Below, one piece after another: positions 4,070 through 43,932 of a stretch of 64,000 nt of DNA (position 1 is its first letter; every line of letters begins with the position of its first letter). This DNA is from Eubacteriaceae bacterium (GTDB taxonomy: Bacteria; Bacillota; Clostridia; Eubacteriales; Anaerofustaceae): NCBI GenBank assembly GCA_009782875.1, contig WRIE01000001.1, positions 1 to 64,000 of the forward strand, written 5' to 3'. Below the pieces are notes generated by a model that was not told the origin of the DNA, did not search any database, and saw only the letters and a list, made by a program, of their open reading frames with translations. The translations under genes were made by a program, and so were the position numbers.

Positions 4070-4096
4070 ACATATAAAAAACTTTGTCATATTATA
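4070..4096 (+). promoter_or_regulatory. Sigma-K-type promoter of the beta-helix gene
   Basis: AC at 4070-4071, a 16-base spacer, then CATATTATA at 4088-4096. This is an exact match to AC-N16-CATANNNTA, the consensus of the late mother-cell sigma factor SigK in Bacillus and Clostridia. The start codon of the beta-helix gene is 52 bases further on. Use of this promoter is inferred; the match itself is seen. Confidence 0.55.
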
Positions 4097-4148: not shown

Positions 4149-6407
4149 ATGCAAGTTAGAATCAAGGAAACTGGCTTGGTGTATGCCACATTAAACGATG
4201 CAATTGCGGCTGCGCAAACAGCAGGCTTGACAACATATACTCTGGAGATACTCGGCCCTGTGAATGAGGTGGACAATGTGCCAATAACAGGCAATGTGTC
4301 AATTGTCGGCTCCGGAGGGGCGCAAACCATAACACTCCCCCCAGGCCGCTACATCAGTGTTCCTAGCGGCGGCAACCTTACACTTGGAAGCGGAAACAGC
4401 ACATCTCCTGTCACTATTTCAAATATGGTCAGGGTCCAAGGCGGCGGAATAAATATCAATGACGGTATTGAGCTAGTTGTGCCTAATGGCACTGCTGTAG
4501 CTATGGACAACGGGTCGACAGGTGCCATGACCGGCGGGAAGATAGACGCGAACAGGGGGATTAGCTTGACAGACGGCTCCCAAATTATAAAAATCTCTGG
4601 CGGGGCAATCGAGGCTACTGGGGAAGCGATTTTTATGGCCGGAAATGGAACTTCGATAGGAGAAATTTCCGGCGGGTCATTTGAACAGACTGCTACTTCT
4701 TATTCAGGCTCGGGAGATGCTTTGTACATAAGCAACAATGCAAGGGTTGGCCTTATTTCGGGCGGTTATTTTGAGGCGCAAGCAAACAATGCGATACTCG
4801 TAGCCCGCGGCGCCCGCATAGACAAGATAAGCGGCGGCGAGTTTGTGGCAAACCGTTATAGCGCCACCGGCAATGGGTACCCTGACGCCAATGAGGCGGT
4901 CAGGGTTATATCTGATTCCGGATACCCTCCCTCCAGCATTGGGGAAGTTTCTGGCGGCCATTTCCGCGGCACAAACCATGGAATTTTGGTTATAACCTTT
5001 ACATCAAGCGTCCCAGGAATAATTGAGAAGATAACTGGCGGAGTGTTTGATGTTGCGAATGTCGGCATCCAATGCGACCGCTTCTCGTATATCTACGAAA
5101 TTTCAGGAGGGTATTTAACAACACGCCAAGGAATTCTAAACTCGGGCACTATCAACCTGATCACAGGCGATGTGTACATTGCCGCTTCGGGCTCGTATGC
5201 CATTTACAACTATGAAGGAGGCACCATTGACGAAATTGCAGGCGGGATGTTTCTAAGCTACACCGGGAACTACTCCTATGCAATGGCCAACTCCGGGACA
5301 GTTAAGCTGATTTCCGGAGGCACATTTATTGGGACATATAGTGCGATCAACTGCGATGCGCTTGTCAAAGGGCATCTTGACGAAATTACTGGCGGAGTGT
5401 TTTGGGGGCAAGGCGGTGTGGCAATCAGGCTTTACTATCCGGTGACTTTGCTTGAGCCGGGGCTAAATACGCTAGTAGGGGCTGGCCGGTATATGGGGCT
5501 GAACGGGGTGATTTTCAATAATGACGCGCTTGTGCAGTTTCCTGTAAACAGCTCGACGGGCATAACCTACCATATGAGCACTGGAACATTGCCAGTTGAC
5601 GGGATTTCTGGGACAGAGTTCAAATACCTGACACTTGACATGCCGTATGGGTTCCATAATGTGGATGTCATCGATTCCTACGCTGCTAACTCTGGAGCTG
5701 GAATTTACAGCGATGGCGAAGAAGTCACAATCAGGGCAGGAGTCCGCCCCGGGTATGTTTTTGATGGATGGACTACCACGCTTCCTGACGGCGCTTTGGC
5801 AAACCCAAATTCGCCTGACACAACATTCATTATGCCAGAAAGCAATGTTGTAGCTACTGCGAATTGGAGGGCATTGGCAAGCTCAAATGTCACAGTCAAA
5901 TGCAGTTTTTCCCAATTTAGCGGGGCAGGCACATATTTGGAAGGGGATACAGTCACAATCTATGCGGGCAGCCGTGGCGACCGTTGTGAATTCCAAACAT
6001 GGACATCACAAAATCCAAATGTTGTTTTCGCAAACCCAAACGATGCGACTACAACATTCATAATGCCTGACACGCCTGTGACAGTTGTGGCGGGTTGGCT
6101 GTGCGAGCCAAAAATGACAGCACAAATCGCTTTGGCGCAAGTCATTTCATCGATATCGATGGAAGAGCTGGCGCTTAGCCATATCTTGAATTCTGAAGGG
6201 GAGAAGATACAATATGTTCTGGGAACCTTGGAGGGCGGCAGCGGGCTTGATGGCCCCCCCTCGTTCAATGACTTGTTCCGCATAAATATGAGCGCTAAGG
6301 AGTTGGTGGCAACCGTGTCAATCAGCCAAATGTTTTTGCTCGGCAAGCTTTCCTCTGTTGTAGGCTTTTTGCGGACTGCAGCGGCTAGCGAAGGTGAATG
6401 TGGCTAA
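4149..6407 (+). CDS. Beta-helix SGG-repeat protein with InlB-like repeats, candidate spore surface
   Basis: A 752-residue protein with no signal peptide or anchor. Residues 1-85 begin with VRIKETGLVYATLNDAIAAA, a common opening of repeat proteins of this kind. Residues 90-440 carry about a dozen turns with the core I-S-G-G-x-F or I-T-G-G-V-F spaced by 20-30 residues, typical of a right-handed beta-helix. Two divergent InlB B-type repeats follow at about 511-570 and 585-650 (YxxGEEVTIRAG, FDGWTT, TTFIMPESNV). The last 100 residues (MTAQIALAQVISS, LALSHILNSEGEKIQ) match a tail found in Clostridial collagen-like and spore-associated proteins. The tail and a sigma-K-like promoter point to deposition on the spore from the mother cell. 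Localisation is inferred. The RBS is weak (AACGAAAGGCGT). Confidence 0.7.
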   Translation: MQVRIKETGLVYATLNDAIAAAQTAGLTTYTLEILGPVNEVDNVPITGNVSIVGSGGAQTITLPPGRYISVPSGGNLTLGSGNSTSPVTISNMVRVQGGGININDGIELVVPNGTAVAMDNGSTGAMTGGKIDANRGISLTDGSQIIKISGGAIEATGEAIFMAGNGTSIGEISGGSFEQTATSYSGSGDALYISNNARVGLISGGYFEAQANNAILVARGARIDKISGGEFVANRYSATGNGYPDANEAVRVISDSGYPPSSIGEVSGGHFRGTNHGILVITFTSSVPGIIEKITGGVFDVANVGIQCDRFSYIYEISGGYLTTRQGILNSGTINLITGDVYIAASGSYAIYNYEGGTIDEIAGGMFLSYTGNYSYAMANSGTVKLISGGTFIGTYSAINCDALVKGHLDEITGGVFWGQGGVAIRLYYPVTLLEPGLNTLVGAGRYMGLNGVIFNNDALVQFPVNSSTGITYHMSTGTLPVDGISGTEFKYLTLDMPYGFHNVDVIDSYAANSGAGIYSDGEEVTIRAGVRPGYVFDGWTTTLPDGALANPNSPDTTFIMPESNVVATANWRALASSNVTVKCSFSQFSGAGTYLEGDTVTIYAGSRGDRCEFQTWTSQNPNVVFANPNDATTTFIMPDTPVTVVAGWLCEPKMTAQIALAQVISSISMEELALSHILNSEGEKIQYVLGTLEGGSGLDGPPSFNDLFRINMSAKELVATVSISQMFLLGKLSSVVGFLRTAAASEGECG

Positions 6408-24893: not shown

Positions 24894-25574
24894 TTTTCCT
24901 CCTTGAAAGATAATTATTATTGCATCGAAAGCGGCAGAAAAATTCCGCATTCGATTGGTCGGGAACTGCTTGGCCAATCAAGGCTATGAAGGTTGTAGTT
25001 TTTGTGCCAGTGTCTCCTTGAAACAATCTGGTGGTGGTCGCTGTTTCGGCGAAGGTGTCATAGCTGCAGGCAATGTAGCTTGCCATTATCAGCGCTTTGC
25101 TAGCCTGGATTGGATGCCATTATCGTTGCAAGGAGCTTTAAACAGCTTTTTCTTTCATAAAACCACACTTGGCTAAGCAGGCATGGCAAACCGGTAAAGC
25201 GCGTCTTGCCATGCAACACCAACATTCTAACCTATATACTGAATCCGTCAAGTGGCTTTTTTAGAATGGCTTGGAGATGCCCCCAGGCAGCGCGCCCAAA
25301 ACATGCTGGTAGCAGCGCGCTGTTGGCGTGTTTAGTGTTTGAAAGCAGCTGCAATGTATCAACGACATCTTATTGCCCATATATATGGGCATATGCAGCA
25401 AAACCAGTGCTGCATATGCCCTGCAAGGCAATCCTGTAAAAAGTTAACTAGTTTAAGGCATCGCACGCTTTTATAAAGCAAGGCTGCCAATATCCATCAC
25501 CAAAAAAGGCTTAATGCTGGTGGCTGTTTTTTTTTGCGGTTGTTTAATAGTTGTTTTGGTTGGCAGAGCTTTTT
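24894..25574. other. Intergenic between URO-D paralogs 1 and 2
   Basis: No gene is supported in about 680 bases. It contains nested palindromes at 25375-25421. The ribosome binding site of paralog 1 is at its left end. Poly-T and poly-A stretches near 25500-25540 could belong to the end of paralog 2. Confidence 0.4.
25375..25421. repeat. Overlapping palindrome and hairpin
   Basis: Bases 25375-25390 form a 16-bp perfect palindrome (GCCCATATATATGGGC). Its last four bases also start a second hairpin, whose 14-bp perfect stem pairs 25387-25400 with 25408-25421 around the loop AAACCAG. The two structures are mutually exclusive at GGGC, an arrangement seen in attenuators and in small structured RNAs. 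No T tract follows. Confidence 0.4.
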
Positions 25575-26957
25575 CTAGCAAATGCAGAAAGTGATATTTT
25601 GCATGAACATCCTCTTGGCATAAGCTTCGAAGCGCGGCCTCGCCTCATCCGGGGTGTAAGGGTACTTTCTCTTGAACTCGTCCCAGTCAAAGGTATACTT
25701 GCTAACCACCTTTGGAGCCTCCTCAATCTTGAACTTTTCAGAGTTCAGCGGTGTAGCGATGCTTGCGCCTGGATTGCTATAAACGCCATAGTCGCGAACC
25801 GTTTCAGCTATTGCGCAGTAGGTGTCAAAGGGGATGTCTGTTGACGCGATGGGGTTTTTGTCGAAGCCGAAAATATACCCGCCTGCTGGCATCATGATGT
25901 CAAGCAGCCTCTTGACTTCGCTGATGTTTTCTTCCTTTGTCAAGTTCTTCACATTAGCCATGGGATACAATCCGCCCAGGAAATGTGTCTTTGAAAGCTT
26001 GTCGTTGATAACTTGGGGATCTCCGTACTCGAAGCGCATAACATTGCCTGTTGGCAAATCTTGCAGTATGTCAAGGTAGCGCATCCAATCATGCTCGCAG
26101 AACATGCTTACCCTGATGTCCCTTGCATTGTACTGTTCGACCAGTTTTCTGTAAGTGGGCAGCCAAACTTCTTTGAAGTCTTTTTCACGCATGTATGTGG
26201 GCATATGCAGAGGGGTTGACACAGCTCCCCTTGGATGGGGGTTGGAAGGCAAGCCGAAATTGAACATAATCGGGTACAGGGCGTCGCAGGCTGCTATGAC
26301 TTTGTCCCTGTAGCGCCTGGTGTCGCTGGAGATGCCCGAAAAGCTCCGCAGCTGGTCTGACAAAAAATCATATGGCGCAGCAGCGAAACCGCCTGAGCCG
26401 GCAGGGGCTCCAGGGTAATACCCAAATCGCTCGACCAATCCAGCGACTACTCCGCCCATTGTAGCAGCGTCTTCGGCTTTTGAGATGGCAAATAGATGCA
26501 CAGCATTCCCCCTGCTTACCGGGTCAGCCATTGCGTTGTGGAGTCGGGGGATAGCTTTCTCCAAGAGGGTCGCATATGCGTCTTCAACCAGGGAGTCATA
26601 GTCCTCTGGCAACAAAGCGTGGGTGTTGGGATGTTGCATATAGCCGTGGTTGCCCATTTTAATGGTGTTGCTTTCGATGAGCTGGAATGGGACTGGAATC
26701 AAGGATGCCTGCCCGATGCCCCCCACAGGGCTCGTGTCAGAATAAAGGATCTCGCAGACCTTGTTGGCTTGCTCGGCAAGTTTTGTGTAGTCGTACTGGA
26801 AATCAAAGAAATCCACTCCGCCTTGCTCAGCCAGGATATGCATCCCCACTGACATGGATACGGGTATCCTTTTGGGAGTTTTGTAATTGTAATAGTCTTC
26901 ATACAATTGGATACGCTCGTTTTGCAGTGCTTTTGGGTCATTTTGCTCTAAACTCAT
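25575..26957 (-). CDS. URO-D-fold methyltransferase-like protein, paralog 2
   Basis: A 460-residue protein; ATG 26957 is preceded by AAGGAGGAAAA, the same leader as paralog 1. It is the most divergent of the four long copies: QLYEDYYNYKTPKRIPVSMSVG, DPVSRGNAVHLFAISKAED, SSDTRRYRDKVIAAC, FCEHDWMRYLDILQD (Cys in place of Asn), MRFEYGDPQVIND, PAGGYIFGFDKNP, and it ends in FMQNITFCIC instead of the YYxxLL seen in the others. The changes at the usual active-site face suggest a different substrate or partner. A candidate operator TTAAACCGGTTAA lies about 90 bases upstream. Confidence 0.75.
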   Translation of the reverse strand: MSLEQNDPKALQNERIQLYEDYYNYKTPKRIPVSMSVGMHILAEQGGVDFFDFQYDYTKLAEQANKVCEILYSDTSPVGGIGQASLIPVPFQLIESNTIKMGNHGYMQHPNTHALLPEDYDSLVEDAYATLLEKAIPRLHNAMADPVSRGNAVHLFAISKAEDAATMGGVVAGLVERFGYYPGAPAGSGGFAAAPYDFLSDQLRSFSGISSDTRRYRDKVIAACDALYPIMFNFGLPSNPHPRGAVSTPLHMPTYMREKDFKEVWLPTYRKLVEQYNARDIRVSMFCEHDWMRYLDILQDLPTGNVMRFEYGDPQVINDKLSKTHFLGGLYPMANVKNLTKEENISEVKRLLDIMMPAGGYIFGFDKNPIASTDIPFDTYCAIAETVRDYGVYSNPGASIATPLNSEKFKIEEAPKVVSKYTFDWDEFKRKYPYTPDEARPRFEAYAKRMFMQNITFCIC

Positions 26958-27048
26958 TTTTCCTCCTTGGAATGTGGTGTTAAATAATTTGGCATTAAGA
27001 GGCTTAACGATTGGTCAAACAAGAAGTGATTGTCCACAAGAAATATTG

Positions 27049-27061
27049 TTAAACCGGTTAA
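27049..27061. promoter_or_regulatory. TTAAACCGGTTAA candidate operator
   Basis: This near-palindrome matches the site at 23284-23297 upstream of the response regulator (TTAACCGGTTTTAA when read in the other direction) apart from one extra T. It lies 92 bases upstream of URO-D paralog 2. The function is inferred from recurrence only. Confidence 0.35.
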
Positions 27062-27183
27062 TAAACCCAAAATAAGACCCTATACAATCTATTCAAAAAT
27101 ATTTTAGCATATTTGTGCTTGTTATGTCAATGAAAGCCGTTATAGCTGGCAAATTGTAGGCGGATTATGTTAAAAGCGGCAAT

Positions 27184-27220
27184 AAAAAAAGCTGGTCCCA
27201 TCGATGAAGATGAGCCCAGC
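27184..27220 (-). terminator. Intrinsic terminator of URO-D paralog 3
   Basis: On the minus strand, GCTGG pairs with CCAGC, and CTCATC with GATGGG, around a TTCATC loop. A run of seven Ts follows directly. It sits 55 bases past the stop of paralog 3. Confidence 0.75.
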
Positions 27221-27274
27221 ATAAAAACCTGGCTTGTCCAATCCAACCATAAATAATATTTATATACGGAATGG

Positions 27275-28663
27275 CTATACGAGCAAGTTGATATAATAAT
27301 CGAACATGGTCTTGTGGTAGCCTTCGAAACGGGCCCTTGCCGAGTCTGGGGTGTATGGGTATTGTTTTTTAAAGTCATCCCAGTTAAAGGCATATTTGCT
27401 GTTGAGCACTGGAGTTTCTTCCATTGCGAAATTCTCAGAGTTGAGGGGTTTAGCAAATGTTTCGCCTGGATTGTCATAAACACCGTAGTCGCGGATCGTC
27501 TCGCCAATGGCATTGTATGTGTCAAGTGGGACATCGCTTGCTTTGATGGCGCCTTTGTCAAAGCCAAATTGGTAGCCGCCGCCCGGCATCATGATATCAA
27601 GCAGCGCTTTTACTCGAGAGATATTTTCTTCTTTTGACAAGGTTTTTACATTGGTGATCGGGTACAAACCGCCAATAAAGTGGGTTTTTGATAGCTTGTC
27701 TTTAATTAATTGGGCGCTTTCAATTCCGTATTCGAAGCGCATCAAGTGGCCTGTCGGGAAGTCTTGAAGAATATCGAGGTAGCGAATCCAATCATGCTCG
27801 TTGAACATGCTCACCCTCGCGCCCCTGACTGCATATTGCTCAAGCAGCCTTCTATAGGTTGGCAGCCATACTTCCACAAAGTCTTTCTCGCGCATGTATG
27901 TGGGCATATGTAGCGGTGTTGAAACTGCGCCCATTGGTGATGGTTTTGCCGGCATTCCGAACAAGAACATCAGCGGGTATAGGGCTTCGCAAGCATCGAT
28001 GACTTTTTTCCTGTTGCGGCGGACATCTTTGGAGATCTCTGAAAAGCTGCGTAGCTGGTCAGCTATGAAGTCATAAGGCGCAGCTGTGAATCCTCCGGAT
28101 CCCGCTGGAGCTCCCGGGTAATACCCGTATTTTTCTACCAAATCGCGGGTAAATGCCATTTGTGCGCCATCTTCCTGTTTTGCGACGATAGCCAAATGAA
28201 CGGCATTTCCTCTCTTTACAGGATCGTCCATGCCAAGCGCTTTGTGTTGGCGTGGGAGGACGATTTCAAGAAGAGCGGCATAAGGGTCTTCGATAAGGGC
28301 ATCATACTCGTCAAAGAGCATACCGATTACATCGGGGTGTTGGACATATCCGCCAGCCCCCATCTGGAATGATTGGCTCTCAAGAATCTGGAAAGATGAC
28401 GGTGTGCGTGTAGACAAACCGATGCCTGGTATCGGGCAGGTGTCTGAATAGAGCTCTTCGCATAATTGCTCTGCTGCGTCTTTGAGCAAGATCCAATTGA
28501 ACTGGAAATCAAAGAAGCTTATTCCGGCTTTTTCAGCTAATATGTGGGAGCCAGATGACATTGGGACAGCCAGCCTCTTAGGTATCTTGTTGTTGAAAAA
28601 ATCTTCGTAGAGCTGGATTCGCTCTTGTTGCGCAGCCTTTGGGTCTGCTGGTATATAACTCAT
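27275..28663 (-). CDS. URO-D-fold methyltransferase-like protein, paralog 3
   Basis: A 462-residue protein from ATG 28663 (GGAGG, four-base spacer). It is closest to paralog 1 by eye: both have SQSF.MGAGG.VQHPDVIGM, MFNEHDW, HLMRFEYGIESAQLI, PGGGYQFGFDKGAI.ASD and KYAFNWD.FKKQYPYTPDSARARFE. A promoter (TTGACT-N17-TAATAT) at 28775-28803 and a palindrome in the leader show that it has its own control. It is monocistronic, with a terminator 55 bases downstream. Confidence 0.75.
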   Translation of the reverse strand: MSYIPADPKAAQQERIQLYEDFFNNKIPKRLAVPMSSGSHILAEKAGISFFDFQFNWILLKDAAEQLCEELYSDTCPIPGIGLSTRTPSSFQILESQSFQMGAGGYVQHPDVIGMLFDEYDALIEDPYAALLEIVLPRQHKALGMDDPVKRGNAVHLAIVAKQEDGAQMAFTRDLVEKYGYYPGAPAGSGGFTAAPYDFIADQLRSFSEISKDVRRNRKKVIDACEALYPLMFLFGMPAKPSPMGAVSTPLHMPTYMREKDFVEVWLPTYRRLLEQYAVRGARVSMFNEHDWIRYLDILQDFPTGHLMRFEYGIESAQLIKDKLSKTHFIGGLYPITNVKTLSKEENISRVKALLDIMMPGGGYQFGFDKGAIKASDVPLDTYNAIGETIRDYGVYDNPGETFAKPLNSENFAMEETPVLNSKYAFNWDDFKKQYPYTPDSARARFEGYHKTMFDYYINLLV

Positions 28664-28706
28664 AGTTCCTCCTTTTTTCACAGGCTATTGCCCATTTTTA
28701 TTTTTG

Positions 28707-28721
28707 TATTGCAATGCAATA
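28707..28721. promoter_or_regulatory. 15-bp palindrome in the leader of paralog 3
   Basis: TATTGCA-A-TGCAATA is a perfect palindrome with a central base, between the promoter and the start codon. The half-site word TTGCAT recurs at 28749-28756. Its position downstream of the start point suits a repressor. Confidence 0.35.
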
Positions 28722-28774
28722 GTTGTAAATCTAGTAGTTGATACAAAATTGCATTGTTTAACTAGATCAATAAC

Positions 28775-28803
28775 ATATTAACACGCACAAAAATACAAGT
28801 CAA
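28775..28803 (-). promoter_or_regulatory. Sigma-A-type promoter of URO-D paralog 3
   Basis: On the minus strand TTGACT, a 17-base spacer and TAATAT form a good vegetative promoter about 112 bases upstream of the ATG at 28663. Confidence 0.55.
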
Positions 28804-29625
28804 GTTTGTTTCAATCCACACTGCCTATTCACTCGTCAACAATCTGCACCGAGCTTCCATTGAGGCAGCGGCGCCATATTTTGATGTAAATAATGATAAG
28901 CCGCTATATGTTGATAGATACTAAGCGTTTTTATCCAAAAACTACAAACTCATTTCATATCAACAATCCTGCTCTTCAAAATGGCTCGATTTTTTTAGCC
29001 ATTCATGTTAGCTCTAGGTATGAATATTGTTTATTGATCCAGCTCATTTACAAAACAAATATTCAACTATGGCAGTAGACAGTTTTGCACCATAATGCCC
29101 AAAATAGATCCAGCAAGTTTTTTTCAAGCCAGTCATAGCCGCTGCAGCTTTTTGTCAACATCAAGCTGCCATCAAGTTTGCCAATTGGGATATTTCGTGT
29201 GATCCGCCGCGCTTTATTTTCGTTGCCGCAAATGCAGGGAAGTGCTTTTTTCGCAGTAGCATGCCCCTTTTTAATGATCAAAGAAAATATGCAAAAAAAA
29301 CGGCCATTCATATCGAGAAATGAAAGTGGCAACCCGGCCGGCACAAACGCACATTAGTGCAGGAGCGGGATTCGCAATAATGTATTTTGCCTTCTTTGCG
29401 GCTAAGTTTTTTTTTTCATCATACGGCAAGGCAAGCATATAACTGGTTACGCCGCATTAACTAATAGAACCGAGTAAAAACCGGATTGCGAAAACAAGTA
29501 AAAAATTGGCAATAAAAGCGGGCCAGGTTTCGACCCCCAACCCGCTTGCAGTATGTGGCCCACAACAAATGCGCATGTGGATTATTTTAAAATGCAGATA
29601 ATTTTAGTTTTTTTATCTTTGCGCG
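28804..29625. other. Intergenic between paralog 3 and the GPH transporter
   Basis: No gene is clearly supported. A 93-codon minus-strand frame at 29063-29344 has protein-like stretches (ITRNIPIGKLDGSLMLTK, YDWLEKNLLDLFWAL) but no ribosome binding site and no recognised family. It may be a gene remnant. A terminator for the transporter lies at 29510-29546. Confidence 0.35.
29510..29546 (-). terminator. Terminator of the GPH transporter gene
   Basis: AGCGGG pairs with CCCGCT around an 18-base loop that itself contains GGTT/AACC complementarity; on the minus strand TTTTATT follows. It is about 80 bases past the transporter stop. Confidence 0.55.
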
Positions 29626-31008
29626 CTATAACGAGTTGCGCTGGAGAGGCTTGCGAGCGTCGATCTCAGCTTGGAGCTCGTTGACCCTTTCGTCATCGAG
29701 CTTATAGAAGACTAGGCAAACCAAGGCAGACATAGCAGTCATAACAGAGGGAACGATTGTCAGCAGAGTGAGTATGCCGTGTTGGAGCTGAGGTGTCGGG
29801 GTTTGGTTGGCAACAAAGTTGTACATGCCAAGCCCGAATGCGACCGCCGCCCCGCGCATGGTGATGCCGATTTTTAGGATAACAGTCGAGCAGCCATTAA
29901 TGAGGGCAGGCATGCTCTTGCCCGTCTTCCACTCTCCGTAAATAGTTGCGGATGCGTACATGAGCGGGTTGCTTGCCTGAAGTGCTTGGTAGAAAAAGTT
30001 GTATATTGCCATGCAGACGATAAAGCCGGTGGCATTTAAGCCATTGAGCTTTGTGACCAGCAAAGTGGCAATTATGGCGCCGCAGTATGCCACGTACCTG
30101 ATTTTAGTGTCCTTGATTAGCTTGGTGACATAAGGGACTGTCATTGCGCCAAAGAAACAGGCAATGCCGTTGATAATCAAATACGTGCCCAGCCATCCCA
30201 TATTGCCTATAGAATACCTGAAATAATAAGTGGCGAGTGTGCTGACGAAGTTTGCGCCCATGCTCCTGAATAAATCGACGATCATGTGGATGAACAAAGG
30301 CGGGTTGGTGCCAATTACTTTCACCATGTCGCCAAAGGATGTATTTTCTTTCGCTTTAGCGGTAATCTGGACAGTGTCTGTGTCATACCCTTTTGTGATA
30401 GAGAAGACGACTAGGTAGGATGCCACCATGAAACATGACATGATAAAAGCGAGGGCAGGGAAGCCGTACATATCGTTGCCTATCAACTTGCTGGAGAGCA
30501 CCAAAACGGGGGGGCCAACATACCCAAACACAATGCGGGCCACAGACGAGTAGGCTGTCCTGTGGGAGCTTAGCAGCATGCGCTCGTCAGGGTTGTTGGC
30601 AAGGACTGTGATCATTGACAGGTTGCACATCCAGTGGGTGTTCCAAACCAAGTGGCTAAACACAAAGGCGAAAATTATCACGGACGCGGCCACTGTGCTG
30701 TTCCCAAGCTTGACGTATTGGAAGGGGTATGTCAATGCGACTATGGGGGGGCCGATAAGCATCCACGAACGGTACCGCCCCCATTTCATATTTGCTTTTT
30801 CGATAACGACGCCAGGGAGGGCAGCGAAAATCGCGTCAAATGTGCTCGTCAAAGACAATATAAGCCCGGAGAGCGCCAGTGGGAACTGGGCGTAGTCGGT
30901 CAAGAAGAGGGCAAAGTAAGTGGATTCAATTTGGCTCATCATTCCGAAGCCAAGGTCTGCAATGCCGTACAATCTCTTGATTGCGGGGGACAACGGCTTT
31001 TTCATCAT
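29626..31008 (-). CDS. GPH-family (MFS) cation symporter
   Basis: A 460-residue, roughly twelve-helix membrane protein that starts at a double ATG behind GAAGG. It begins KRLYGIADLGFGMMSQIESTYFALFLTDYA, the usual opening of glycoside-pentoside-hexuronide:cation symporters. The KWGRYRSWMLIGPPIVALTYPFQY block near 75-98 is the characteristic GRyrpwll loop. Further family segments are NTHWMCNLSMI, YFRYSIGNMGWLGTYLIING and YGEWKTGKSMPALINGCST. It sits inside the URO-D paralog cluster on the same strand, so it may import a substrate or export a product of those proteins. GPH relatives beside URO-D-like genes may carry methylated compounds, not sugars; that is inference. Confidence 0.82.
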   Translation of the reverse strand: MMKKPLSPAIKRLYGIADLGFGMMSQIESTYFALFLTDYAQFPLALSGLILSLTSTFDAIFAALPGVVIEKANMKWGRYRSWMLIGPPIVALTYPFQYVKLGNSTVAASVIIFAFVFSHLVWNTHWMCNLSMITVLANNPDERMLLSSHRTAYSSVARIVFGYVGPPVLVLSSKLIGNDMYGFPALAFIMSCFMVASYLVVFSITKGYDTDTVQITAKAKENTSFGDMVKVIGTNPPLFIHMIVDLFRSMGANFVSTLATYYFRYSIGNMGWLGTYLIINGIACFFGAMTVPYVTKLIKDTKIRYVAYCGAIIATLLVTKLNGLNATGFIVCMAIYNFFYQALQASNPLMYASATIYGEWKTGKSMPALINGCSTVILKIGITMRGAAVAFGLGMYNFVANQTPTPQLQHGILTLLTIVPSVMTAMSALVCLVFYKLDDERVNELQAEIDARKPLQRNSL

Positions 31009-32033
31009 TCCTTCGCGAAAATACCTCTTTCCAAAGCGGGCGTTTAGGCCGCAGCTAAGGCGGGGGAAGGATCGCGATTACCTCTTTTCCATTTTTTTTT
31101 GCAGAGAGTAGCAGGAGGGGCAACCTCATTTTTGCGTTGCGCACATACCGCTTGCGAAATTACGCACAAACCCCTGTGGGCATTGGCAAGTTTGGCCTTG
31201 CCAATGATATCCCAAGGCTAGTGTGTCTACAGCGCCGTCCAGCCGCCCGGATCTTGATTGGCAACCAGTAGAGCGCAGGAAAGTTTGCATCCAGCGGCGC
31301 TTATATATTCCTGGGCTATAGTGCGCATAGGCCAGCCAACCGGGGCGTGTGTCTCAATTTCACCACAAGCCCCTGCTTCAAGCCCATTGGAGGCTAAAAG
31401 CAGGTTGTTGCCCTTTAGTTTGCTCCTTTTTTGGCTGCAAGGCCGCTATGTCGCTATGGCTGTCTTGCAGAAGTTGTTGTGCAATAATATGTCTTTTTTC
31501 CACATGCGCTTTTTGCAGAGCCAAGACGTATAGGCTAGTTTCGAGCATTGCCAAAACGAATATAAGTTCAAAAAAGCATAGGGTGATTTGGAATAAAGCC
31601 TAAAAAGATATTATCATGCATCTAATCTCAATGCAAGTCCGAATTGATTCCAATTATAATCGTTCAAATTTATATCCAATATATTTCGCATTGCCAAAGT
31701 AGATGTTTTTACTTTAAACACGCCTTATTATGGTTGCTTCAATAATCGCCCTTGCCAGTATAACTAGGCAGGTTTGGTTATAGTTATCATAGCGCCTAAA
31801 ACAAACTGGCAATCCGAGTAAATATCATAACTATATATAACCAATAAAAATATGAAATACCAGTTTTTAGAGCGCCAAATATAGGCACTGCCTTCCTGCC
31901 CATGGCTGTTATGGCTCGATGTATTCATATTCTTGTCCAACTGGCGCAAAGCTTATTCAACAGGCAAGGGCAGAATTTCGCATAATGTGCGGCAAGTGTG
32001 GCGGGGGAAAAAGAAATGGGTTTTTTGGAGAAA
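31009..32033. other. One-kilobase intergenic region
   Basis: No gene is supported. A 10-bp perfect hairpin CATTGGCAAG/CTTGCCAATG lies at 31181-31206 upstream of the transporter. Plus-strand frames at 31258-31603 overlap in two frames and lack start signals. The part from 31600 to 32000 is AT-rich and featureless. Confidence 0.35.
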
Positions 32034-32537
32034 TCAATCAGACAGATAAGTGAAACCGTAGATTTCTTTAAGCTGCTCGAAGATCTCGTAGACAATTGGG
32101 CAGACTTCAATCATAGATACACAGCTATAGATAGAGGCAAGCCCGCCTGGCTTGCCGGTGCTGGGAAAACTTGTGCAAACTTCTGGCTTGCAAATATAGA
32201 TGGAGCATTTCCCATCTGAAGCTAGGAATGGGCAAGGCTCGTTGAGCAAATACTCCTTGCCAAAAGGCTCAAGGTATTTTTTTGTGAACTCTTTGGGCGC
32301 CATTTTCAAATGTGAAGCGATTGGACCTACCTCGTTCTTGGTTACGCTGACTGTATATTCCCTGCAACAGTTGCCGCATTTTGAGCAATCGTAGCTGGCA
32401 AACAGCTCATTGTGCAACTGGGCAAATTGGGAGTCGAGTTGCCCGCCATCAGCGTTTTGTTTTAAAAAGTCGCAAAACTCGTAGTTCTCGTCTGATTTGT
32501 GGATGGCAGCCTCTTGGATTCTTACAGGGTCTATCAT
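32034..32537 (-). CDS. YkgJ-family cysteine-cluster protein
   Basis: A 167-residue protein from ATG 32537; longer starts run into a hairpin. The YkgJ pattern is clear: YDCSKCGNCCREYTVSVT (CxxCxxCC) near residue 47-64, then CPFLASDGKCSIYICKPEVCTSFP near 100-123 (CxFL..GxCxIYxxRPxxC) and a final Cys. Eight cysteines in this arrangement bind zinc or an Fe-S cluster in the cytosol; some relatives modify proteins. It lies 86 bases after URO-D paralog 4 on the same strand, with a hairpin between, so it may be read from the same transcript. Confidence 0.75.
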   Translation of the reverse strand: MIDPVRIQEAAIHKSDENYEFCDFLKQNADGGQLDSQFAQLHNELFASYDCSKCGNCCREYTVSVTKNEVGPIASHLKMAPKEFTKKYLEPFGKEYLLNEPCPFLASDGKCSIYICKPEVCTSFPSTGKPGGLASIYSCVSMIEVCPIVYEIFEQLKEIYGFTYLSD

Positions 32538-32573
32538 TTTAAACTCATTTCTGCTTGTCACATAATTTGATGC

Positions 32574-32609
32574 CAGCCCGGCAAAATCGCACAAACGTTT
32601 GCCGGGCTG
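32574..32609 (-). terminator. Hairpin between URO-D paralog 4 and the YkgJ gene
   Basis: A 12-bp perfect stem (32574-32585 with 32598-32609) with core GCCCGGC lies 14 bases past the paralog 4 stop. No T tract follows on the minus strand, so partial read-through into the YkgJ gene is likely. Confidence 0.55.
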
Positions 32610-32623
32610 CAATCTCGGGTTGT

Positions 32624-34000
32624 TTAATGCAGCAAGCTCAAGTAATACCTGAACATGGAGTGGTGGTAGTCTTCAAAACGTTTTTGTGCGAAGTCTGGAG
32701 TGTATGGGTACTGCTTCTTGAACTCGCCCCAATCAAAAGCGTACTTGCTGACTAGTTTTGGAGTCTCCTCCAAGGCGAAATTCTCTATGTTTAGCGGGGT
32801 GCCGAAAGACTGGCCAGGATTGTCATAGACGCTGTAGTCACGCGCAGTCTCAGCTATGGCGCAGTATGTCTCAAAGGGGATGTCACTAAGTATAAGCGCG
32901 CCCTTGTCAAAACCGAACAAATACCCGCCTCCCGGCAACATTGTGTCAAGGAGCTCTTTTACCTTGGCGATGTTCGCCTCTTTGCTCAAGGTTTTCACAT
33001 ACAATGTTGGATACAGTCCGCCAATAAAGAACTTTTTGCCGAGTTTTTCTTTGATAAGCTTGGGGTCGCCGTATTCAAAGCGCATGATATTTCCTGCTGG
33101 CAGGTCTTGCAAGATATCCAGGTAGCGCATCCAGTCATGCTCATTGAAACTGTTGACGCGCACGCCTCTGGCAGCGTATTGCTCGGCCATTCTCCTGTAA
33201 GTAGGCAGCCAGACTTCGACGAAATCCTTTTCCCTCATGTAGGTGGGCATATGCAATGGCATTGAAACGCTACCGCGCAGATCCGGTGATGGCGGCAACC
33301 CGTAAATGAACATCAACGGGTAAAGCGCTTCGCATGCGGCGATCACTTTGTTGCGGTTCCTGCGGACATCCTTTGATATCTCGGAGAATGACCGCAGCTG
33401 GTCGGCGATAAAATCATACGGCGCTGCTGTGGTTGGCGCGCTGGACCCGGCAGGCGGGCCGGGGTAGTAGCCAAAGCGCTCTACGAGGGAACGGACAGTA
33501 CCTGCAAGGGCTGCCCCGTCGTCTAGCCTTGCTTGGATGCCAAGGTGCACAGCGTTCCCCCTTTTCACGGGATCATCCATGCCAATAGCTTTGTGTTGGC
33601 GTGGAATGACTTTTTCAAGAATGGCGGCGTAGGGATCGGCTATGAGCTCGTCATACTCATCTTCCAGCATGCCGATGACTTCAGGGTGCTGGACAAAGCC
33701 TTTTGAGCCCATTTGAAAGGCTTGGCTCTCTAAAATTTGGTAGGAGGACGGGTTCCTGGTTGTCCCGCTTCCGATTGGGCAGTTGTCGGAATATAGGATT
33801 TCGCAAACTTTTTCCACTTGGTCTATGAGCAAGCTATAGTCAAATTGGAAATCAAAAAAATTGATGCCTGCCATCTCTGCCAAGATGTGGTGGGCAACAG
33901 TCATGGATACGGGCATTCTCTTGGGTATCTTGTTTGTGTAATAATCGCCATATAGCTGGATTCGCTCTTCTTGCATTGCTTTTGCGTTAAAATCGCTCAT
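32624..34000 (-). CDS. URO-D-fold methyltransferase-like protein, paralog 4
   Basis: A 458-residue protein from ATG 34000. Shared blocks: QLYGDYYTNKIPKRMPVSMTV, DPVKRGNAVHLGIQA, LRSFSEISKDVRRNRNKV, MPLHMPTYMREKDFVEVWLPTY, FNEHDWMRYLDILQD, MRFEYGDPKLIKEK, PGGGYLFGFDKGAL, KYAFDWGEFKKQYPYTPD. The ribosome binding site AAGGAGG is unusually far from the ATG, and a hairpin fills the gap (34008-34024). An inverted repeat at 34060-34085 lies further upstream. Its own leader and its distance from the other copies suggest separate control. Confidence 0.75.
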   Translation of the reverse strand: MSDFNAKAMQEERIQLYGDYYTNKIPKRMPVSMTVAHHILAEMAGINFFDFQFDYSLLIDQVEKVCEILYSDNCPIGSGTTRNPSSYQILESQAFQMGSKGFVQHPEVIGMLEDEYDELIADPYAAILEKVIPRQHKAIGMDDPVKRGNAVHLGIQARLDDGAALAGTVRSLVERFGYYPGPPAGSSAPTTAAPYDFIADQLRSFSEISKDVRRNRNKVIAACEALYPLMFIYGLPPSPDLRGSVSMPLHMPTYMREKDFVEVWLPTYRRMAEQYAARGVRVNSFNEHDWMRYLDILQDLPAGNIMRFEYGDPKLIKEKLGKKFFIGGLYPTLYVKTLSKEANIAKVKELLDTMLPGGGYLFGFDKGALILSDIPFETYCAIAETARDYSVYDNPGQSFGTPLNIENFALEETPKLVSKYAFDWGEFKKQYPYTPDFAQKRFEDYHHSMFRYYLSLLH

Positions 34001-34007
34001 TTGATTA

Positions 34008-34031
34008 TGCGGCTTATAACCGCACACCTCC
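34008..34031 (-). promoter_or_regulatory. Ribosome binding site separated from the start by a hairpin
   Basis: On the minus strand AAGGAGG is followed by a 5-bp GC-rich stem TGCGG/CCGCA (34020-34024 with 34008-34012, loop of seven) and then the ATG at 34000. The linear gap is about 25 bases, too long for normal initiation. If the stem folds, the gap falls to near-normal length. A GTG right after AAGGAGG has no spacing and cannot serve. Confidence 0.45.
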
Positions 34032-34059
34032 TTTTTATGATAACTATTGTTTTTGGTTG

Positions 34060-34085
34060 AGCATTCCAAAATTAATTGGAATGCT
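34060..34085. promoter_or_regulatory. 10-bp inverted repeat upstream of URO-D paralog 4
   Basis: AGCATTCCAA and TTGGAATGCT flank six bases, 60 bases upstream of the start codon. The size and symmetry suit a dimeric repressor site or a leader hairpin. Confidence 0.4.
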
Positions 34086-34160
34086 TTGATATTCAATTCT
34101 AACATGTTAACTGCTGAAATGGATAGTCGCTGGAAGAATTAGATCGATTCTATTTATTTA

Positions 34161-35475: not shown

Positions 35476-36171
35476 CTGGGAGTAGCTTGCAAGTTATTGG
35501 GTTTTCCCATATTTCGTGGCTGCATTTCATTGGTGATGGAAGAGACACCTGATCTTTCACAGCTCCCCTCTATAGTTCACCGTTCCCTCACCTCGTATAA
35601 CTACAGTATCACGTATCAGATACGCATTCAAACTTCTTTGTTTGCATTGCAGAAAACTTGATATTTTGCATTGGTTTGTGGCTCGTGCTATTTTCATATG
35701 ATGCCAAGCCTAATAGGAATTCGAACACAAAACCATTGAATCCTTCAAAGGTCTTAAAAGGCTTGATGGACAAAAAAAACCTATTGTACCTTGTGAACCG
35801 TGCCCACGCCATAATGAAAGTGTTTTTGAATGCTATATCGGCTTCCTGCGGGAAGATATTCAGGCTACTTGAATTTGCTTGCGCTTGTTGCTAATCCTCA
35901 AAATAAATTTGCTTGAAAAAGTCGCAAAATTATAATTTGGGCTTTCTCTAATCCCAAAATGCTTCGATATAGAGAGTTTTATAACGTAAATACGGACTTT
36001 TAGCTATCATTAAAGTACACAGCGCAGGTAAGGATTATTTTTGTTTTAAAAAAGCCTGAAAGCCCACGGCTAAACGATGGGCTTTCAGGTGAAAAAACTG
36101 TTAAATTAATATTCTCCTGTTAAAGCCATGGCATCAAGACGCGTTAATACTAACAGCAATCCCTGTTCTTA
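35476..36171. other. Intergenic, mostly AT-rich
   Basis: Overlapping frames on both strands at 35609-35894 have no start signal or recognisable protein. The right end holds a clear terminator (36050-36089) for the gene at 36172. Confidence 0.4.
36050..36089 (-). terminator. Intrinsic terminator of the GLUG-like/Cys-rich gene
   Basis: A 12-bp perfect stem (36055-36066 with 36078-36089), loop of 11, followed on the minus strand by C and six Ts. It is about 80 bases past the stop. Confidence 0.8.
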
Positions 36172-37641
36172 TTACTTGCATATGGTTTTGCCATCCCTAT
36201 CTTGGATGCAGTTATTCTCCAAGCTTGGCGGATAAAAGCTCTCGAAATAGTCTTCATCAGTCCACCAAATTGGTATGCACCTTTTGCCAGACTTGCTTTT
36301 GCGAAACCCGCGGGGGCACCCTTTTGTGTCATGGACAAGGTTCTTCTTTCTTGGAATTGGGACGCATCTCCCGTTTACTAGCCAAAAGCCATCCCGGCAC
36401 TCAGGCCTTTGGGGCGGCCTTGGCTGGTTGCAGCCTGCCCCTTTGCATGGGGGCTTTTGTGGCGGCTGGTGCCAATTGCCGCATCCTGAAGGGCAGTTCT
36501 GTGGCGGCTGGTGCCAGTTGCCGCATCCGGAAGGGCAGTTTTGGGGCGGCTTTGGCTGGATCGTGAGGATACACCGGCCGTTCACCCAAACAAACCCTGG
36601 AGGGCAAATCGGCTCCGGCTGGAAAACAGGCACACAGCGCCCGTTGACAAGATGGAACGCAGGAGGGCAAATAGTTGGCGCGGCCCAGTTGCCGCCTTGC
36701 AGCCCAGATGGGGAAAAGTCGGGGTCGAATTGCTGGATTGTCTGGTTGGCGTATGCCAACCCCCCATCCTGCGAGTTGTCGCCGCTGATTAAGACTGATG
36801 GAATTGCCGTATTCCCATAAAGCGCTATGGGCGCGCCCTTGTCTGCAAAGCCTGCAATTCTGCGCGCGTTAAGCCTCGCAGATACTCTCGCGCCGCGGAA
36901 TGTGTTGTTTTCCACTTCTTGCCTGCGCGGCCCGGAAAGGCAACCGACTATGCCTCCAGCATTGTTGGAAGATGCGGTTATGCTGGCAAAGGACTCGTTG
37001 TTCGCAATAGCGCTTGACCTTGAGATTCCAACGATGCCTCCGGCGTTCCCAACAGACTCAACGCTTCCTCTGGATATATTAGAAGAAACTTGGGTTGACT
37101 CGCCATCAGTTTCGCCGATGATGCCTCCCGAAGCGGAAATACCGCTAACTTCGGCGTCGCTTTCGTTTTGAGTAATCAAAACCCCAGCCCCGGCAACAGA
37201 GCCTGCAATGCCTCCGGCGCATTGGCCTGCGACTTGGGCAAAGTTTTTGTTGGATATGGCAACTGCCCCGCCTAAAAGAATGCCGGCGACGCCCCCTGTT
37301 TGGGCTTGCCCGGTTACCCTGCCCCTGACTGTGCAGTTTTCTATGCGTGAGCCGTTTTGGGCAAAGGCTGCAATAGCACCTATGGGGCCATTGCCCACCC
37401 GGATATCGGCATTTACATTGAGGTTGCAAACTGCGCCCCAGAGGTTTTGGAAAAGAGGGGCCCTAACATTGCTAATCGTGCAAAAAGAGCCATTTAGCAG
37501 GAAGCCTGGCTCTGCTGGTATTGGCGCCCAATTGCTATCGATGTTGATATTGCCGGCAAGGGTATAATCGCCATTGGCAGGAAAGCGGCTGTTTCTGCCA
37601 ATGCGCATCAATTCTTCTTGTGAAGATATCATTTGTGACAT
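36172..37641 (-). CDS. GLUG-like beta-helix protein with Cys-rich tail, candidate spore surface
   Basis: A 489-residue protein with no signal peptide, behind GGAGG. Residues 1-280 hold about nine short repeats with the core GG-I-V/A-G (TGGVAGILLGG, AGGIAGSVAG, SGGIIGETDG, AGGIVGISR, AGGIVGCLSG), as in GLUG-type beta-helix proteins. From about residue 320 the protein turns Cys- and Pro-rich: three to four modules of CPPxFxxVNGRCVP, a 14-residue tandem repeat PPQNCPSGCGNWHQ and a final CPRGFRKSKSGKRCIP module. Disulfide or metal cross-linking is likely. An exact sigma-K-type promoter lies 28 bases upstream of the ATG, so mother-cell synthesis and assembly on the spore is the best inference. No enzyme motif is seen. 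Confidence 0.65.
   Translation of the reverse strand: MSQMISSQEELMRIGRNSRFPANGDYTLAGNINIDSNWAPIPAEPGFLLNGSFCTISNVRAPLFQNLWGAVCNLNVNADIRVGNGPIGAIAAFAQNGSRIENCTVRGRVTGQAQTGGVAGILLGGAVAISNKNFAQVAGQCAGGIAGSVAGAGVLITQNESDAEVSGISASGGIIGETDGESTQVSSNISRGSVESVGNAGGIVGISRSSAIANNESFASITASSNNAGGIVGCLSGPRRQEVENNTFRGARVSARLNARRIAGFADKGAPIALYGNTAIPSVLISGDNSQDGGLAYANQTIQQFDPDFSPSGLQGGNWAAPTICPPAFHLVNGRCVPVFQPEPICPPGFVWVNGRCILTIQPKPPQNCPSGCGNWHQPPQNCPSGCGNWHQPPQKPPCKGAGCNQPRPPQRPECRDGFWLVNGRCVPIPRKKNLVHDTKGCPRGFRKSKSGKRCIPIWWTDEDYFESFYPPSLENNCIQDRDGKTICK
36458..36541 (-). repeat. 42-bp tandem repeat in the Cys-rich tail
   Basis: Two copies with period 42 (starting at 36458 and 36500) differ at only a few bases and encode PPQNCPSGCGNWHQ twice; a degenerate third copy follows. 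Few silent changes suggest recent duplication, so copy number may vary between strains. Confidence 0.7.
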
Positions 37642-37669
37642 GTATAACCTCCAAAATGCAATATATAAT

Positions 37670-37696
37670 TAATTTATGTTCAATTGGCTATTATGT
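37670..37696 (-). promoter_or_regulatory. Sigma-K-type promoter of the GLUG-like/Cys-rich gene
   Basis: On the minus strand AC (37696-37695), a 16-base spacer and CATAAATTA (37678-37670) match AC-N16-CATANNNTA exactly. Twenty-eight bases with a GGAGG site separate it from the ATG at 37641. Confidence 0.6.
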
Positions 37697-38401: not shown

Positions 38402-39484
38402 CTACTGAGCCTTGTTGTCCAAGGCATCTAGCATCGATTTAATATTGGCCCTGGCCTGCTCTTCATGCCTGTCATAGTAGAATTGGGTTTGGTATATCCT
38501 TGGGGAGGCTGCCAATGATTCGAGAAAATCGGCTTTCTCACCTTGGGAGCCGCCGCCAATAAACAAGCCTAAGACATCCTTTTCGTGGTTGGCAAATCTC
38601 TCTTTGTCAGTCCCGAAAATCGCCAGCGATATGTCTTTGGCATAAGCGAAGTCTTCGCTTCCAGAAGTGTGGACGGACCCGTTCAGCACACCAAGCAGCT
38701 GGGCGGCTGCCAGCGCGGCAGAGCCGTCGATGCCCAACCTGGCGAAAAGCTTCAGTGCAGCTTCCTCATTGTCGCCTAATTTCTTATAATGGGCATAGTG
38801 CCAGACCGCAAGCACTAATGCATCAGGCGCTTTAAGCTTGCTTCTTATAATGCTGACTTGGCACAACATCTGGTGTATGGCGCCCAAGCTTGCGCCTTCG
38901 CTGTTTTCGTAAGCGCTTAAAAGCTCCTGGTACACGCTTTCATGGTTTTGGATGCCGAGATTGTTCGCCAGTGTTGTCCAAAGGCCTTTGTAAAAGTTGT
39001 CCACAAGCTTTTTGAGCACAGGCCCCGGCACGTAGTCGGCAACCAAGTCTTCCCAGCCATTGGGCCCCACCAGGCTTTTGACTAGGCTCGAGGAAATGTT
39101 TGCGTATTCCGGCTTTGAGGGGAAGAAGTATAATGTTTCTATCTGGGGGCACAATTTTTTATTTACAGAGTACATCCGCAGCTCATAGGAAAAATCGTCC
39201 CTGCTGCGAATGCCCCGGACCAAGTGTGTTGCCCCAAGTTGCTCTGCGAATGTCACTAGGAAATCCCCTTCAAAACCGACGATTTGGACGTTGCCCACAT
39301 CCACAAGGGTGTCCCTGATCATTTCGAGCCTGTCGGCAAGGGAGTATGTGTAGCTTTTTTCCGCATTGATGCCGATAGCGACTACCAGGGTGTCGCACAT
39401 TCCAGCGACTTTATTGATTATGTCTAAATGGCCAATTGTGATTGGGTCAAAAGACCCGGCGTAAACGTAAATGCTTTTTCCCAT
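38402..39484 (-). CDS. coaD: Phosphopantetheine adenylyltransferase fused to a degenerate HD domain
   Basis: A 360-residue protein. Residues 1-160 are CoaD: AGSFDPITIGHLDII (nucleotide-binding TxGH), KSYTYSLADRLEMI, HLVRGIRSRDDFSYELRMYSVNKKL near 88-110 and ISSSLVKSLV near 130. This enzyme adenylates 4'-phosphopantetheine in CoA synthesis. Residues 165-355 resemble the COG4339 HD-phosphohydrolase-like family (LWTTLANNLG, YQELLSAYEN, LAVWHYAHYKKLGDNEEAALKLF, IYQTQFYYDRHEEQARANIKSML), but the usual WFHD metal motif reads WHYA, so hydrolase activity is doubtful. Normal CoaD has about 160 residues. The leader carries a 25-bp tandem duplication containing the ribosome binding site. Confidence 0.85.
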   Translation of the reverse strand: MGKSIYVYAGSFDPITIGHLDIINKVAGMCDTLVVAIGINAEKSYTYSLADRLEMIRDTLVDVGNVQIVGFEGDFLVTFAEQLGATHLVRGIRSRDDFSYELRMYSVNKKLCPQIETLYFFPSKPEYANISSSLVKSLVGPNGWEDLVADYVPGPVLKKLVDNFYKGLWTTLANNLGIQNHESVYQELLSAYENSEGASLGAIHQMLCQVSIIRSKLKAPDALVLAVWHYAHYKKLGDNEEAALKLFARLGIDGSAALAAAQLLGVLNGSVHTSGSEDFAYAKDISLAIFGTDKERFANHEKDVLGLFIGGGSQGEKADFLESLAASPRIYQTQFYYDRHEEQARANIKSMLDALDNKAQ

Positions 39485-42771: not shown

Positions 42772-43932
42772 CTATAGGCGCACATTTCTAATATAGTCTG
42801 TAACCGCAATCAGGTTTTCCCTCTTCGCATCCCTTGGGAAAGTAAGCATTTTATCTGTCGACGCATAGAATGCTCCGTCGTAAGCCACATCGTCCAGCAG
42901 TTGTTTGAGTTCATCAATATTCTTTTCCACAGTTCCAAAAGTAAGGGTGTTTGTTTTTATGCCGCCAGCGACAGCTGCCACAGAGCCGACTTTTTGCTTG
43001 TATTCCCTGATGTCGTTTTGCTCTGCATGCATTATGAAATGGCCCTTGGGGGCGTCTTGGAGGAAATCAAATATCCTGTCTGCAGTCCCTTGTATGAACA
43101 GGTATGCTATTTTGTCATATTCATCGCAATAGTCATAGAGCTCTTTTAGTATTGGCCAATAGATTTCCTTGAAATCGTTAGTAGACAAGATGATATGGGC
43201 GAGAAATGATGTATGGATGTCGCAGCCTTTGGCCGGGTCTGAGCCGACTGTCAAATCTTTTCTTGGCAGGGCGACGTTTGCTTGCATCAAGTCGAGGATT
43301 TTTCCCCTGCGCCTGCGCAGGTCAATGGATGTATTGTAAATTCCCCTATATCCACTGATAAGCCTTTCGAATGGATTGCTGATTGGTATGTTGCTGCGAA
43401 CATCAAGAACCCCGTACTCGGTGTCCATGATTTTTCCGATTTCAGCAACATAATTGTTGTAATTGTCCAGCTCTTTGATTGCGGCGCTAAAGTAGGCTGG
43501 TGCATTTTCGTCTGTTAAATGAGGATATTTTGCCGGAATCACTTTGGTCCATAGAAATTTTTTTCGGTCGTTTAACAGCAGATCATAGTCGTTGTCAGGA
43601 TCATCCATGACGTTGAGGTCAATGACGTTTGATGAATAGTTATCATCGCTTTGGATATACATTCCGCCTCCGCCAACAGCGTCAATTATGCGCAGCGGGT
43701 TTCGCGACCAGAAATCGCGGTAGCAGTCAAAATTGTACCTCTCATGAAACTCGCGCATCATTTTGATGCGAAGGCCGTAATCCCTGGTGGCGACGCTTAG
43801 TTTTTGGTTGCTGTCAAATACTATCCAGTGGTGGTATGAGCAGACAGTAATGATTTTTTCATTATTTTCGAATCTGGCTGCGTTCTTAAACACACGAATA
43901 CGTTCATTTTTTACTATTTTGGGGTCAACCAT
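42772..43932 (-). CDS. Divergent URO-D-fold protein, paralog 5
   Basis: A 386-residue protein from ATG 43932 behind AGGAGAAAAAAGAA. It is shorter than the four copies at 23502-34000 but keeps the same plan: KNERIRVFKNAARFENNEK at the start, RRRRGKILDLMQAN where the others have the Arg-rich DVRRNR helix, DIHTSFLAHIILSTNDFKEIYWPILKELYDYCDE matching the HMPTYMREKDFVEVWLPTY block, FDFLQDAPKGHFIMHAEQNDI matching LDILQDxPxGHxMRFEYG, and a final YASTDKMLTF near the GGGYxFGFDKG position. Zinc ligands of MtaA-type enzymes are not evident. It is followed by a 47-residue microprotein. Substrate unknown. Confidence 0.6.
   Translation of the reverse strand: MVDPKIVKNERIRVFKNAARFENNEKIITVCSYHHWIVFDSNQKLSVATRDYGLRIKMMREFHERYNFDCYRDFWSRNPLRIIDAVGGGGMYIQSDDNYSSNVIDLNVMDDPDNDYDLLLNDRKKFLWTKVIPAKYPHLTDENAPAYFSAAIKELDNYNNYVAEIGKIMDTEYGVLDVRSNIPISNPFERLISGYRGIYNTSIDLRRRRGKILDLMQANVALPRKDLTVGSDPAKGCDIHTSFLAHIILSTNDFKEIYWPILKELYDYCDEYDKIAYLFIQGTADRIFDFLQDAPKGHFIMHAEQNDIREYKQKVGSVAAVAGGIKTNTLTFGTVEKNIDELKQLLDDVAYDGAFYASTDKMLTFPRDAKRENLIAVTDYIRNVRL

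Follow-up and report, generated by a model that had tools for sequence, protein, structure and literature searches.

A leaderless beta-helix protein with a cysteine-hairpin tail: a candidate spore-surface protein of a Eubacteriaceae bacterium

Spore surfaces vary greatly between lineages, and the proteins on them are hard to recognise, since they come without leaders and without shared sequence. Leaderless, Cys-rich spore-surface proteins are already known, and excerpts of the respective reports describe how some of them behave. CsxA self-assembles in the cytoplasm of E. coli into disulfide-linked sheets, for the disassembly of which harsh reduction is needed (PMC7333573, in excerpt). The cdeC and cdeM genes of C. 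difficile are monocistronic and SigK-controlled and encode Cys-rich proteins, CdeM being species-specific (PMC6101409, in excerpt), and ENA subunits are found first in the mother cell and then on the spore surface (PMC12921279, in excerpt). Searches of the literature have returned no paper that joins the GLUG motif with sporulation, and for GLUG, spore coat and beta-helix only microsporidian and unrelated papers; as far as these searches go, no protein has been described that combines a GLUG helix with a tail of putatively stapled hairpins.

Such a combination is encoded in the window analysed here, a stretch of 64,000 nucleotides from a Eubacteriaceae bacterium (assembly GCA_009782875.1, contig WRIE01000001.1, positions 1 to 64,000). 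The gene occupies 36172..37641 on the minus strand, starts with ATG and translates into a protein of 489 aa, which is single-copy in the 3.19-Mb, 109-contig genome. AlphaFold and Foldseek assign residues 1-270 (36832..37641, minus strand) to a right-handed beta-helix that includes its N-terminal cap, with a pLDDT of about 94 over this region and high values from residue 1 onwards. Its rungs, of the form GG[IV]xG, begin at residues 116, 143, 172, 201 and 229, and the closest folds are the beta-helices of IgA1 proteases (7uvl, E 2e-5, as best match, followed by 3n6z, E 3e-5, and 6xja, E 6e-5), in line with the phmmer match to 6xjb (7.6e-5). With these five rungs, the predicted helix and the exact VNGRC modules described below, the earlier note's description of a GG-I-V-G repeat helix joined to Cys modules is borne out. 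Its label "GLUG-like" is a fair one, if weak by Pfam standards, as PF07581 (Glug) reaches 17.0 bits on the whole protein at a cut-off of 20.5; in the genome scan a single repeat scores 22.4 bits against the same cut-off. M26_N remains at 17.8 bits (cut-off 27.7), no peptidase domain has been matched in the Pfam scan, and Pfam scans of both the whole protein and the tail have given no match to a coat or exosporium family.

Regarding export, the absence of a signal that had been claimed from the translation holds on closer inspection. The stop-to-stop frame comprises 498 codons only, so that a signal peptide before the helix is impossible, and the highest 12-residue hydropathy mean within the first 40 residues amounts to 0.02, as compared with 2.6-3.3 in leader-bearing relatives. 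For the GLUG-type homologues, 20 of the 25 other matching places have been used (four in G093 and the second match in one G047 frame were left out), and 18 of these 20 carry a hydrophobic N-terminal leader; of the remaining two, one ORF is cut off by the end of its contig and the other is an internal fragment. Leaders are also present in four further GLUG proteins, one from the same genome (L041) and three from other genomes (L042, L048, L021), and the one relative that the genome-contig scan has yielded is a leader-bearing GLUG protein of a Bacillota MAG. A leaderless homologue, L005, has been found in G004, a genome of the same family and another genus; it is 315 aa long and shares the N-terminal cap, while the Cys tail is missing. 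Among the 101 genomes searched, L005 and the 489-aa protein are the only ones that start inside the helix cap, and both reside in genomes with SpoIVA, which is present in 43 of the 101. Neither of the two findings that the earlier note had named as refuting its reading, a leader overlooked here or an occurrence in non-spore-formers only, has thus come up: nearly all other GLUG homologues do carry leaders, but the gene itself has no room for one, and the leaderless type has been seen in two SpoIVA-positive genomes only. An adhesin-type fold that bears a leader in nearly all relatives is met here without one, beside a promoter-like site of the mother-cell type.

This site, ACATAATAGCCAATTGAACATAAATTA at 37670..37696 (minus strand), has the form ACA-N15-CATAAATTA, its -10 box lying 37 bp upstream of the ATG, and is a match to the consensus rather than a mapped start. 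It agrees with the SigK-type elements of C. difficile, for which an excerpt of PMC3789822 gives AC at -35 and CATATAAT at -10, and the SigK-type promoter that had been proposed is present as a consensus site. No sigma-70 site has been detected at the start of the gene in the promoter scan. A GGAGG ribosome binding site (37648..37652, minus strand), recognised from the sequence and by the RBS search, precedes the start codon, and an intrinsic terminator with a 12-bp stem and a U-run follows the gene at 36048..36089 (minus strand; folding energy -24.2 kcal/mol, z -5.6; missing from the consensus scan list). Own promoter-like site, GGAGG and terminator together argue for a single-gene unit. The window holds three ACA-N14-16-CATAnnnTA sites against 0.9 expected, and two of the three lie directly upstream of leaderless genes, namely the gene of the 489-aa protein and the gene at 4149-6407. 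Over the whole genome, the pattern is no more frequent than in the reversed control (76 versus 86 sites), so that the site alone is weak evidence, its position counting rather than its presence, and we have dismissed it as sufficient evidence. The L005 gene has a CATACTATA box at -39 that is not accompanied by an AC at -35. The source genome encodes an unsplit SigK (NF004471, 271 bits at a cut-off of 252; 263 bits against TIGR02846, under the cut-off of 298.65), and its SigE gene adjoins a SpoIIGA-like gene.

Taking these data together, one may ask whether the gene is simply a GLUG adhesin that has lost its leader and is decaying, with a promoter-like site that arose by chance and a product that remains cytoplasmic or is never synthesised. 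The leaders of most relatives and the chance frequency of SigK-like sites genome-wide would fit such a history, but the frame is intact, the GGAGG and the terminator are in place, the helix cap is complete from residue 1, and a leaderless homologue exists in another genus, which makes decay an unlikely explanation.

The C-terminal part of the protein is rich in Cys and Pro and contains 16 of the 21 Cys residues within 165 residues, in which eight Cys pairs can be counted: three CxxxFxxVNGRC motifs, CPRGF...GKRC, two CPSGC, CKGAGC and C478-C488. The several copies of a Cys module that had been read from the translation are found as three exact modules and a divergent one, all on the minus strand. 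Module 1 (CPPAFHLVNGRC, residues 325-336, 36634..36669) coincides with model strands 329-332/335-338, module 2 (CPPGFVWVNGRC, residues 346-357, 36571..36606) with strands 350-353/356-359, module 3 (CRDGFWLVNGRC, residues 415-426, 36364..36399) with strands 419-422/425-428, and the divergent module 4 (CPRGF...GKRC; CPRGFRKSKSGKRC, residues 442-455, 36277..36318) with strands 446-448/455-457. Between modules 2 and 3 lies the near-perfect 42-bp tandem that had likewise been noted (36458..36551, minus strand), which TRF reports with 2.2 copies and 92% matches and from which two identical 14-aa CPSGC repeats, NCPSGCGNWHQPPQ, are translated; the CKGAGC pair (residues 399-404, 36430..36447) and the C-terminal pair C478-C488 (36178..36210), both on the minus strand, are placed by their Cys positions. 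In 100000 shuffles of the tail not even one C...F..VNGRC has arisen. The AlphaFold model is mostly of low confidence in the tail, with pLDDT below 50 over much of residues 281-489, and the structure prediction that the earlier note had proposed for the modules gives four hairpins that coincide with them and have Cys at their ends (pLDDT about 55-80 by blocks of ten residues). This model suggests that the tail may be a novel anchor of disulfide-stapled hairpins.

As for relatives of the module, the strict VNGRC coding pattern is absent from the other genomes among 67 of the order and 398 of the phylum (overlapping samples), and a slightly stricter pattern occurs in no other genome among 391 of the class, a sample that overlaps the order and phylum sets. 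None has been found in IMG/VR with a stricter pattern, nor in phages. A DNA-pattern search of this kind can overlook divergent modules, and at strict-pattern stringency the module is thus lineage-specific; its absence from the other genomes searched speaks against its being a marker of spore-formers, and its chemistry is not readable from relatives. A match to an Alteromonas plasmid (28% identity, E 6e-3) is weak and has been judged compositional. Kinship with EGF or EB modules has been rejected as well, because the Pfam scores stay under the curated cut-offs (PF01683 EB on the tail alone, E 1.6e-4, 22.1 bits, cut-off 24.3; cEGF on the whole protein, E 1.5e-4, 21.9 bits, cut-off 26.6) and no solved structure matches; a loose Cys spacing is shared with these domains, whereas the modules of the tail have two Cys and not six. 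CxxxC and CxxxxC pairs can bind metal, and CPSGC and CKGAGC are pairs of these two kinds, so that a spore-surface protein whose loops serve metal binding, redox chemistry or thiol exchange instead of cross-linking is conceivable. We regard it as quite improbable, given that the Pfam scan has matched no known metal-site family in the tail and that the VNGRC Cys are placed at the ends of predicted hairpins, as expected of a disulfide staple.

The reading that we prefer, and consider likely, is that the protein is a SigK-dependent mother-cell protein of the spore surface (coat or exosporium), with a disulfide-anchored tail and a displayed beta-helix. It would be made under SigK during the late phase of sporulation, in the cytoplasm of the mother cell and from its single-gene unit, and would need no signal peptide because it is made there. 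It would then dock on the forespore, disulfides would lock the tail as the layer matures, and lysis of the mother cell would expose the protein. The N-terminal helix would act as a rigid rod of the GLUG or IgA1-protease type, moved from secreted adhesins to the spore, and the tail, a string of two-Cys loops with four predicted beta-hairpins, three of them closed by an NG turn and with Cys at the ends, would anchor this rod via disulfides within or between chains, like other Cys-rich spore-surface proteins. SigK dependence, spore localisation, the disulfide state and the display or adhesive function of the helix are what we infer, and the location on the spore surface, which the earlier note had suggested, is supported indirectly by SpoIVA, by SigK, by the promoter-like site, by L005 and by the enrichment of such sites at A-ENA-like genes described below. 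That the protein instead belongs to vegetative cells, is released by lysis or through some uncharacterised leaderless pathway and has its function at the surface of the cell would suit modules of kinds normally found outside cells, but is very improbable in view of the SigK-type site, the negative sigma-70 scan and the restriction of the leaderless type to two SpoIVA-positive genomes among 101.

The gene at 4149..6407 (plus strand) is preceded at 61 bp by the second site of SigK type, ACA-N15-CATATTATA (4070..4096, plus strand), and encodes a leaderless protein of 752 aa with beta-helix-like repeats (assigned by eye), two InlB B-repeats and a C-terminal A-ENA-like domain (6084-6377). The ORFs downstream of SigK-type sites in the genome have led to L115, a leaderless collagen-like protein, and a 90-aa domain is common to L115 and the C-terminus of the 4149-6407 product (45% identity). 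A profile of this domain, built from 25 of the 30 copies of the source genome and G004, matches PDB 9ihh_A, entitled "Ex vivo spore-silk A-ENA fibers", with E 1.8e-20, and single copies do so with E 3.4e-9 and, for the 4149-6407 product, 4e-7. No Pfam family covers the domain, and the A-ENA-like assignment rests on sequence, as a fold search has given nothing below E 0.001; peptide strings of the domain have found no match in the papers searched. At E 1e-4, 17 copies are present in the source genome, 13 in G004 and one each in G069 and G070, and none in 97 of the 101 genomes; all four carriers possess SpoIVA, and the two rich ones are the two genomes with leaderless GLUG proteins. Most of the proteins start with MS[LMI]P and are leaderless, and the domain is placed at either end, next to heads that include collagen, Cna-B-like (by eye) and InlB-repeat modules, among others. 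The 489-aa protein itself has no such domain, which hmmsearch finds among the window ORFs only in 4149-6407.

The promoter pattern has been compared between 15 of the 17 A-ENA-like places of the source genome (L189 and L190 left out, being copies without start codon and apparently decayed) and 39 control genes, hand-chosen from the ORF lists of the window. The strict AC-N15-17-CATAnnnTA occurs upstream of 4 of the 15 and 1 of the 39 (p 0.018), the looser CATAnnnT -10 box upstream of 6 and 1, respectively (p 0.001); the full site is found at none of 12 A-ENA-like genes of G004 (of 13 places, one off the contig end was left out). Since two genes of interest had served to define the pattern and one of them belongs to the set of 15, and given the result in G004, we take the enrichment as moderate support for a link between SigK-type sites and putative spore-surface genes in the source genome.

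Together with the 4149-6407 gene, the 30 places in the source genome (G000) and G004 (L115, L179-L198) represent a large expansion of leaderless A-ENA-like fusions, putative display proteins. Related domains occur on seven IMG/VR contigs labelled viral (L226-L232), which probably represent DNA of a spore-former host or prophage, and in a collagen-like protein of the Bacillus velezensis plasmid NZ_CP083716.1 (L199, 48% identity in the domain), the gene of which adjoins a glycosyltransferase gene. Two further leaderless proteins of the window have no detectable CATAnnnT[AG] box upstream. The product of 52287-53105 (plus strand; 272 aa, 29 of them Cys) begins with a Cys/Asn-rich (NC)n stretch, carries a SpaA/Cna-B domain and is likely another spore-surface protein, and that of 3348-3785 (plus strand; 145 aa) is C1q-like (phmmer 5hkj, E 1e-9), a kind of domain that tips Bacillus spore appendages according to an excerpt of PMC11952670. 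Elsewhere in the window, 23502-34105 and 42772-43932 encode five similar or URO-D-like proteins (493, 491, 468, 460 and 386 aa; two were scanned, with weak URO-D matches), which are accompanied by an MFS_2 sugar-type transporter and perhaps form a methyltransferase-type set, and 38402-39484 (minus strand) encodes a nucleotidyltransferase of 360 aa, in which a long C-terminal extension follows the CTP_transf_like domain (residues 7-136).

If the spore-surface reading is true, it would provide a practical rule by which spore-surface proteins can be sought, namely as leaderless proteins that contain an extracellular-type module and whose genes have a SigK-type site. One may further postulate, tentatively, a modular display on the spore, in which leaderless mother-cell proteins with beta-helix, collagen, Cna-B or InlB-type heads are fixed by either an A-ENA fibre domain or a VNGRC tail; secreted adhesin modules would then have reached the spore through loss of the leader and acquisition of mother-cell promoters. 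The wider A-ENA display set is the more far-reaching lead.

Compared with known systems, the 489-aa protein shares fold and GGxxG rungs with the N-terminal beta-helix of the GLUG/M26 IgA1 proteases, but has neither a signal peptide nor a matched peptidase domain and carries a Cys tail instead. By description it resembles CsxA, CotY/ExsY and CdeC/CdeM in being Cys-rich and leaderless, the cdeC and cdeM genes in being monocistronic with a SigK-type site (PMC6101409, in excerpt), and CdeM also in its restriction to a lineage; it differs from all of these in that its Cys are gathered mainly in a hairpin tail behind a beta-helix and in having no Pfam coat family. To the A-ENA family (PDB 9ihh) it is related by circumstance, as these proteins are encoded in the same genome, are leaderless and in some cases have the same type of promoter site. 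In one of them, the 4149-6407 product, the A-ENA-like domain is joined to beta-helix-like repeats, and where that protein has this domain, the 489-aa protein has its Cys tail.
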